From assembly GCA_964035545.1 (NCBI GenBank), contig OZ037769.1, positions 6,506,429 through 6,570,428 on the forward strand: DNA of 64,000 nt. Reading direction: 5' to 3'. Of this stretch, positions 14,201 through 17,200 are shown piece after piece. Position 1 is the first letter of the stretch, and the number at the start of each line of letters is the position of its first letter. The position numbers and the translations under genes were made by a program. Below the pieces are notes generated by a model. The model was not told the origin of the DNA. It made no database searches and saw only the letters and a list, made by a program, of their open reading frames with translations. This DNA is from Bugula neritina. Its lineage: Eukaryota > Bryozoa > Gymnolaemata > Cheilostomatida > Bugulidae.

Positions 14201-17200
14201 TATAAATAACTGCCTAGTCCTCTAGTCCTTGTCACAACATAACCTGTCAAAACAATAAGCGCTTTAACTAGCCTGCCAATACATGTTAACTGCTTCTGGT
14301 ATTTTGTCACTGAAAACACGAACACACAAGTTTGTTTAGGCCACTAAAATCTTTCATTTTATTCAGCTAAAATCTGCAAATTCTGAGCACCAAGTAAAAG
14401 TTGCTCAACCACAATATCTAAACTAGCTCTGTTGTGTGCTTGAATACAAAATATAATTACGTTGTAGCATATTCCTTACGGCCGCCCTTGGTATGCCAGA
14501 AGCCTTGATTCCCGTGCAGCTGCTGTGGGTGAACCTGGTCACCGATGGCCTGCCAGCCACTGCTCTTAGCTTCAACCCGCCTGACCTTGACATCATGGAC
14601 AAGCAGCCCCGGGACCCTAAGGAAGGCCTCATCACCGGCTGGCTGTTCTTCAGATACATGGCTATTGGCAGTAAGTTGTCCCCCCAACTCTGTGTTTCTT
14701 AAATTTTCTTAGTTTGTCTGAAATTTTATGGCTGCCAATTCTGTGTACTGGAGTTTTGCTCTCTTTCCTTAAGATTTTTGTTAAGCAAGTCATAAAAATT
14801 GCTTTATTCAATTCAGAGATATAGTGTGTTAATTTAATAGACTCTTTGTTGTTTTGACCAAACAGTTCTTTTATCTGCATAGTGTTGAATGTTGCAGTTT
14901 ACGTCGGTGCTGCCACAGTTGGAGCTGCTGCCTGGTGGTTTATGTCCGCACCTGATGGACCACACCTCAACTACTATCAACTGGTACAGCTACTGTGCAA
15001 TTCTCTCTCTTGTTCATAGTGACTAGTTCATATATTTGATCTGCTGAGCTGATAACATTCTGTATTATACCCACTGTTTTTAAATGTCATACTGTTTTAT
15101 TATTGTACAATGAATATGTTTCCCACTGCCATGTTTACATGTTCCAATACCTGCTGGCTGCTATTACAGACACATCATATGCAATGTTTGGGGGAACCAG
15201 AAAATTTCGCTGGAGTAAGTTGTGAGGTTTTCCAAGCACCTGAGCCTATGACAATGGCCTTGTCTGTTTTGGTTGTCATTGAGATGCTTAATGCACTCAA
15301 CAGGTAAACATGTGCCATTGGTTGAGGCAGCGCTGCCTTGGCTAGCTAGCTGATTGGTTGAGACACTAATATGAGTATATAATTTTTAAATTGATTTGCA
15401 GTAGCAGTTCTTAGCACAAATTAATCTATTAAACAGCTTTCAGCCAATCGCTAGCTAGACATTACTGGTGTAAGTTTTCATACACTTACTAGTGGGTTAT
15501 ACTGAGTTCCTACTTGAGTGCTGTGAAACCTTACACCGTCCCTCAAAACATGCCAGCTTTCACTGATGTGATTACTGATTCCACACTATTGTCTTTGTTT
15601 AGACCCACCACTCGCAATGTTTAGCTCAGGCAGCAAATTTCTCTGGTGTTGATTGCAAAGTTTTTGACAGTGATATACCCCATGCGTTGGCATTGTCGGT
15701 ATTGGTTACAGTGGAGATGCTGAACGCGTTGAATAGGTATGATCACACGCTACCAGCCACCCTTCATCCCTCTCCGTAGTCATTCGGAGTTGTTAGCCTT
15801 TTCACGCTGGACACTCAGTACTAACTAGTAACAGCTAGCACTAGTATTAACAACTGTCCTTTTCCATGCTGCCAGTTGGCACTGCTTGCCCTGCAATGCT
15901 CCATTAAGCAGACAAAAAAGTGTTCCTAGTGACTAGATGATGTAGTGACCAGATGGTGTCACGCTGTAGTAGAGGTTTTCTTAGCACATCTCTCTGCTGT
16001 CCTCTCTTTCTAGTTTCAGTTGCTTCTAACATTAGCTCTACCTGTTGAGATGCACTGAATGTGTGAATGTTGTCTTTCTGTTCATAGTGTAGAATTTTAG
16101 ACCTGCGACGTGTGTAAAGGTTGATTGTGTGGATATGAAGATCAGTTTTAGCTGTTCATGTGACATTCTAAGTCTATCCTTTCTGTCCTGGCTAGTCAGT
16201 TTGTTATATTTTGTGCTATACTTGGTCTGAAAGCAGCTGCTGCATGCTTGACTAGATAGTTTGACGGTTTTCCAAAGTTAGAAGGTGTGTAGGCCATTAA
16301 TCTTTCATAGCGAGTTGTATTCCAAAATTCCTCCTAGTGGGTATTAAGTTTAGAAATTAGTCGACTATATTGACCTGTCACAGCATGTGTGGTGTTGTAA
16401 TAGCGACCTGCCTGAGCTAAGCAAGTATACATGCGTCACGCTGGCGCGCTGCTGAGACTGCTGCTGGTGGTGGGATCTTGGCAAGTTGGTGTTTTTCTTT
16501 TTTGTTTTTATACTTGAATTAATCGCATGCTACTTATTAAATACATTAAAATTCCATTTTCTGCTAAATGTTCTTGTGGTAACTTCAAGCAATTTATTTA
16601 TAGCGCACTGCGCCACTAACTAACTTCATTTGTATATATATAAACCATCTACAAATGTACTAATTGTAATATTGGTTGATCAACGGCCAATGTATTTTCA
16701 TGCAAACTGAACTTTTTTATAAAAATTAAATCTTGGGCAGTCTTTCATGCTGCTTGATGTGTTTGCAGTCTGAGTGAGAATCAGTCTCTGCTTTCCATGC
16801 CTCCGTGGGTGAACCCGTGGCTCGTAGGAGCAGTTGCCCTCTCAATGGCTCTCCACTTCATGATTCTACACGTACCCTTTTTGTCTGTAAGTAGTTTATT
16901 ATACATATCTATCTACATGTCCGTTTTAAGTTGCGGTCCATCTACCAAGCATGAGTTCTCAATCTTCCAAGTCTAGGCGAGATTTACAAATGGCGTGTGA
17001 TAGCAACTAGAGAGTTGCCTACTCATCGGTGTATGGCTTAAATGGGGTAAAAGAGCAAAAAGAATATACTTATGACAATCCACGTTCAAAGCACTTGGTG
17101 TTCTATATTATTCATTTTATTATATTTTTAATAAGGTTTTGAACACTGTAAGTTGCTCTTTCATTATATTAAAATGTGCTGCTCACTTTCATTTGCTGAG

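Follow-up and report, generated by a model that had tools for sequence, protein, structure and literature searches.

In almost all animal cells the Ca2+ store is set by SERCA, and the gene for this pump in a 64-kb window of the Bugula neritina genome (the window being the whole stretch of DNA analyzed here) raises the question of whether one pump gene carries two interchangeable versions of an internal segment and, if so, how one would be chosen over the other and what the choice would change. An initial annotation had proposed that two duplicated exons, hereafter A and B, are mutually exclusive and swap the luminal loop L7-8 and M8 of the pump. Mutually exclusive duplicated exons are still the best reading after our analysis, supported by the anatomy of the exons, the logic of the reading frame, and the presence of B-type exons elsewhere. 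The fuller explanation that we favor, and consider probable, is a splice-selected pair of SERCA isoforms with altered luminal regulation, in which the acceptor of exon B would be hidden by a predicted RNA helix.

The SERCA gene sits in the left part of the window and is otherwise intact.

Positions 2251–17426, plus strand: coding part of the SERCA (ATP2A-type) gene, 22 coding exons with A and B taken as one.

With either A or B, the gene model encodes 1,022 residues without an internal stop, and over 995 amino acids the A version is 72.7% and the B version 72.0% identical to rabbit SERCA1. Pfam identified PF00122 (E1-E2_ATPase), PF13246, and PF00689 (Cation_ATPase_C) in the protein, and all 17 PDB matches of its C-terminal 152 residues were SERCA1 or SERCA2. 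Alignments located the two loop cysteines in both versions, as well as the M8 glutamate, which we take to be a calcium ligand, in agreement with what had first been noticed. P-type ATPase domains, SERCA1 and SERCA2 as the closest solved relatives, and these residues together assign the protein to the SERCA class, and the duplicated segment is placed at L7-8/M8 by homology to the solved SERCAs. The C-terminal tail, judged by eye, is 11th-helix-like. Inspection by eye also revealed long simple repeats within the SERCA introns, one AGT-type (8056–8260) and one TATACTCTG-type (11070–11340). Elsewhere in the window, two nearly identical open frames (57479–57967 and 62425–62835, both minus strand), with several cysteines seen by eye, are probably a recent tandem duplication.

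No second close SERCA copy was present in the genome among the 45 candidates scored out of 55, and the matches outside the gene were more distant Ca2+-ATPases, some of them on small foreign contigs. Small contigs C16, C263, C58, C171, and C269 carry long Ca2+-ATPase-like frames with in-frame TAA or TAG; C16, the one contig that we read under the ciliate code, yields an 858-aa frame, and the assembly seems to retain DNA from a ciliate cobiont. Contig C295 is the host mitochondrial contig, with a near-full gene set in which nad6 precedes cox1-atp6-nad3-nad2-cox2-cob-nad4L-nad4-nad5-nad1-cox3. Ten of these genes were identified with Pfam and cox1 by a separate search; nad2 and nad4, which share one Pfam model, were distinguished by their size and position, and nad6 was assigned by eye. 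The order matches the one tabulated for Bugula neritina in PMC2678162. Translated with code 4, the C295 cox1 has, as judged by eye, arginine at expected serines and isoleucine at expected methionines, in keeping with the invertebrate code; a passage in PMC3285623 reports that gene order differs strongly among the mitochondria of Flustra, Bugula, and Watersipora. Contig C6 has an equally long cox1 with nearly the same score as that of C295, likely a nuclear copy, and additional cox1 genes that look foreign occur in contigs C17, C65, and C196, in two cases broken into two pieces.

Exons A and B are followed by a constitutive exon that begins at 16769.

Positions 15170–15303, plus strand: exon A, the canonical L7-8/M8 segment, residues 874–917, with PEPMTMALS and with two acids between the loop cysteines.
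Positions 15304–15602, plus strand: intron between exons A and B, 299 nt.
Positions 15603–15736, plus strand: exon B, an alternative L7-8/M8 segment in which the sole acid between the cysteines is the residue just before the second cysteine (Cys2).

The exon coordinates, the lengths of 134 and 134 nt, the 299-nt spacing, the GT-AG borders, the shared phase, and the 27 of 44 identical residues were all correct as first described, and the entry to M8 does differ between the exons (PEPMTMALS in A, DIPHALALS in B). Because 134 is not a multiple of three, using both exons or neither leads to an early stop. When A is joined to B, the eighth codon is a TAG (the codon spanning the A|B junction being number one), and when both are skipped, the following exon has a TGA at its third codon, confirming the two consequences predicted in the initial annotation. 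With A alone or B alone, the reading frame stays open into the next exon, and each exon is open in one forward frame only. A and B combine what is expected of mutually exclusive tandem exons: they are neighboring and homologous (82 of 134 nucleotides identical), equal in length and phase, and non-productive when both are included or both skipped. We infer that in RNA the two are used one at a time, with the frame enforcing exclusivity and with double inclusion or skipping presumably leading, through the early stop, to RNA decay. Two other causes of exclusivity found no footing here: U2/U12 incompatibility, given GT-AG borders and no U12-type donor by eye, and a too-short intron, given that 299 nt lies within this gene's intron range of 147–2234 nt. 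Splice sites were scored with a matrix from the gene's 20 constitutive introns and compared with the leave-one-out range. The donors of A and B scored 6.4 and 7.1, in mid-range, and their acceptors 5.6 and 5.0, in the lower part of the range of −0.4 to 16.8. A tblastn search with rabbit SERCA1 (E ≤ 10) detected no second copy of any other SERCA segment, and its one extra match to the L7-8/M8 segment (6135–6305, E 1.9, 23% identity) looks like noise.

A tandem copy could also be left over, unused, from an ancient duplication, or be spliced in at no more than noise level. Exon B departs further from vertebrate SERCA than exon A does (52% versus 68% identity to rabbit SERCA1), and the score of its acceptor is among the lower ones for this gene, both of which would fit such a remnant. 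The 52 nucleotide differences between A and B fall 16/9/27 at codon positions 1/2/3. Against a remnant, a dN/dS-type comparison of the copies, a check put forward in the initial annotation, gave pN 0.27 and pS 0.84 (dS saturated), and in 20,000 simulations run without selection, each with 52 differences, not one retained 27 identical residues free of a stop, a result that tests A and B as a pair, so that part of the constraint is A's. The occurrence of B-type exons elsewhere also speaks against a remnant, and we regard this explanation as highly improbable.

A search for a like exon in other SERCA genes, likewise suggested at the outset, was positive, with two B-type exons from other sources. 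A profile of the two exon peptides retrieved 18 proteins from 18 candidates, and a second profile retrieved 500 proteins from 589 candidates, of which the best 120 of 500 were used; the comparison set comprised 125 distinct proteins from both searches, among the matches listed. Two of these 125 listed proteins, P0003 and P0033, are B-type and share the signature SD[IV]P[HR]xLALSVLVxVEM. P0003 is identical to B at 37 of 44 residues and to A at 28 of 44; for P0033, with one extra residue dropped, the counts are 31 of 44 and 25 of 44. The borders of both, compared from protein sequence alone, resemble those of exon B, with a Q preceding THH, the residue expected from a CAG acceptor, and an N-R end at the donor. 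Because both open reading frames end at the donor, they look genomic; of the 125 open reading frames among the matches listed, 15 continue into the exon that follows, and these 15 include no B-type. Exons of A-type and B-type thus both occur in other sources, and an A exon beside P0003 or P0033 was not seen.

In a FastTree phylogeny of 112 distinct exon peptides (among the matches listed), the three B-type exons grouped with a support of 0.99, and P0024, which is A-type at PMT, was the next to join them (0.96). Exon A, the peptide of which is identical to P0001 in a JGI contig, grouped apart from B, with P0002, P0026, and others; the tree draws on 44 positions only, so its deeper nodes are weak. 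As A and B are less alike (27/44) than B and P0003 (37/44), the duplication looks older than the split of those lineages, and we propose that exon 20 would have been duplicated in tandem before the Bugula neritina lineage split from at least two others. Judged by these comparisons, exon B is not a decaying copy, and the sequences from other sources are stronger evidence for B than the pair simulation. Going by sequence, A and B are very likely a conserved coding exon pair that is exclusive by frame.

The same data bear on the idea that exon B is a regulatory poison exon, which, when included with A, would shift the frame and lower the SERCA level. Inclusion of A and B together does give a stop at the eighth codon, and the predicted helix described below, a strong one that covers the 3′ splice site of B, suggests regulated inclusion. 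However, exon B, when read on from exon 19, shows constraint as protein, and two other sources carry the same signature; a poison exon has no need for a conserved M8 helix, cysteines, and glutamate. We consider this role improbable and retain the reading of A and B as alternative coding exons.

A different duplication is apparent in P0019, one 139-residue open reading frame that contains the exon twice, both copies A-type, separated by a stretch that corresponds by our own count to a 64-nt intron. The copies agree at 36 of 42 residues and pair with one another in the tree as closest neighbors (0.88; among the matches listed), and for this reason look like a separate tandem duplication. There, exclusivity could rest on the short intron (about 64 nt).

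What would a cell gain from the choice? The proposal that A and B differ in loop charge was borne out and can be made more specific: exon B is without acids between the two cysteines, counted with the residue just before Cys2 (an aspartate in exon B) left out. By this count, acids are absent from 3 of 3 B-type loops and at least one is present in 121 of 121 A-type loops (database copies among the matches listed). The 121 are 120 database copies, including both of P0019, plus exon A, and represent 97 distinct loops; four proteins without the pattern were left out of the 125 database proteins and two exons that entered the count. The loops of rabbit SERCA1 and human SERCA2 also have at least one acid between the cysteines.

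A sensing role for the luminal M7-M8 loop in SERCA was reported only in 2025. In that work, E877, D878, and E883, which lie between C875 and C887, are described as giving human SERCA2a its luminal Ca2+ response, and the triple leucine mutant E877L/D878L/E883L as having lower transport (Bovo et al., 2025; PMC11826342). Exon B resembles these mutants as a natural counterpart in which acids between the loop cysteines are removed, but the mutants are engineered point mutants of one human isoform, whereas here the change comes with an alternative exon and the positions are not identical. Isoform A would have the canonical luminal loop, including acids between the cysteines, and isoform B would preserve both cysteines of the disulfide and the calcium ligand in M8 while presenting a loop that lacks those acids and an altered M8 entry. 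From the SERCA2a mutants, luminal Ca2+ would be expected to stimulate B less; because exon A's two acids differ in position from the three tested in SERCA2a, the reduced luminal tuning of B is something that we infer. That a luminal charge switch is what the A/B pair provides is a tentative proposal, which we put somewhat short of even.

Exclusive use of A and B could instead serve redox or partner control of the ERp57/calnexin type, or pump speed in certain muscles, rather than luminal Ca2+ sensing. The L7-8 loop disulfide is reported as a redox control point in a part of PMC11826342, and the M8 entry differs between the exons too. All three B-type exons nevertheless keep both cysteines, and what they have in common is the loss of acids and the SD[IV]P[HR] entry, and we hold gains of this kind to be somewhat unlikely. 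With luminal charge as our working proposal, an isoform pair that differs only in the loop and M8 entry, and for which at least three sources carry a B-type exon, offers a ready-made test of luminal sensing.

How might the choice be made? Folding of the region around exon B predicted a long-range helix between the start of the exon and the intron downstream of it.

Positions 15596–15633, plus strand: upstream helix arm, covering the last intron nucleotides, the 3′ splice site, and the first 31 nt of exon B.
Positions 16408–16483, plus strand: downstream-intron helix arm, 16408–16423 and 16462–16483, with 38 nt bulged between.

The window 15594–15633 paired with the downstream intron at −51.5 kcal/mol (z −9.4, 40 shuffles), with 35 pairs in the predicted helix (18 GC, 13 AU, and 4 GU). 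Among 3,140 distinct windows of this geometry across the 64 kb, it ranked first; the second-best, at 59994, was close (−49.0, z −6.2). None of 300 shuffles was as strong as the B acceptor window, and when the gene's 22 acceptor windows were each compared with 60 shuffles, only that of B stood out (z −4.7; the others −1.3 to +1.4). Within the folded region, the two main halves of the helix had mean pairing of 0.98 and 0.90, and keeping B's site open cost 14.0 kcal/mol. The intron arm has one match in the genome, which ruled out a transposon copy as its origin.

This helix would hide B's 3′ splice site and so make A the default exon, and use of B would require that a protein prevent or open the helix, or that splicing take place ahead of transcription of the intron arm. 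According to the folding model, control of the A/B choice by the helix is close to an even prospect. The acceptor of exon A could in principle compete for the same partner.

Positions 15137–15183, plus strand: 3′ splice site of exon A, possible pairing with 16382–16434, which overlaps the downstream helix arm.

The B arm was very strong in this docking/selector comparison. The A acceptor paired at −40.0 kcal/mol with 4 of 300 shuffles as good (z −2.7 in the window scan, where three windows in the A–B intron, at z −2.8 to −3.1, scored below it), was not significant in another window (z −0.65), and did not form in the ensemble, nor when B's site was kept open. We make no claim of docking competition by exon A, the pairing being weak, window-dependent, and absent from the ensemble, and therefore propose hiding of B's acceptor rather than full Dscam-like competition. 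Two further candidate pairings did not stand up: that of A's 5′ splice site with the upstream or downstream intron, equaled by 28 of 300 shuffles and with pairing below 0.01, and that of the 5′ splice site of B, equaled by 177 of 300 shuffles.

A helix joining exon and intron could instead be an RNA-editing substrate, with adenosines in B deaminated, which is compatible with exclusive use of the exons. In the editing of glutamate receptor pre-mRNA, exon sequence forms a duplex with its complement in an intron, and the layout of these known substrates is like that of the 35-pair exon-intron duplex with bulges found here at the exon's 5′ end. However, the helix arm also covers the splice acceptor and fits splice control equally well, and we think editing unlikely. 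Hiding of the acceptor is the role that we keep for the helix.

The gene may, on sequence grounds, also have the classical SERCA 3′-end alternative, a basic tail versus the 11th-helix-like tail.

Positions 18594–18640, plus strand: candidate alternative last exon, spliced from the donor at 17347 (after 17346), encoding the basic tail GGKQETKVLLEKKRR and then TGA.

A pyrimidine-rich acceptor precedes 18594 and opens this 15-residue basic tail, which is identical to the tail of P0026 at 7 of 14 residues (E 0.03). P0026, an A-type open reading frame of a similar animal, runs through the borders of exons 21 and 22 without introns and so represents either spliced RNA or a gene lacking those introns. 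Together, the internal pair and a 3′-end choice may allow the gene to make up to four forms.

A broader claim would be that one SERCA exon was converted at least twice independently in animals into a splice-selected, helix-gated switch of the luminal set point, with A sensing store Ca2+ through its loop acids and B not doing so. We regard this generalization as fairly unlikely.

An internal SERCA exon pair was not reported in the titles and abstract openings that we searched, and the words SERCA and ATP2A are absent from the main text of the surveys PMC9741552 and PMC5740500 (the latter human). In known SERCA splicing (SERCA1a/b, 2a/b, 3a-f; Artemia, C. elegans), one gene likewise gives isoforms by splicing, but the choices described in passages of PMC3527596 and PMC5840707 lie towards the 3′ end, whereas in the present gene the alternative exons are internal and exchange L7-8 together with the beginning of M8. 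The plasma membrane Ca2+-ATPase (PMCA/mca-3) and other transporters are alike in having homologous tandem exons swapped within an ion transporter, and such duplicated-exon swaps are reported to be convergent in vertebrates, arthropods, and nematodes (PMC9741552). The internal SERCA exon swap is, as read here, a new internal variant, duplicated-exon splicing itself being already known, and if our reading is true, SERCA joins the ion transporters with duplicated exons. Dscam, 14-3-3zeta, Mhc, and srp resemble the present gene in the long-range pairing of an exon cluster with a downstream intron element, as reported in PMC6071210. The arrangement here differs in that competition by exon A is unsupported and one arm spans the 3′ splice site and a coding part of exon B, which, if it acts as proposed, would provide a case in which the hiding of a splice site by pairing of coding exon and intron can be measured.
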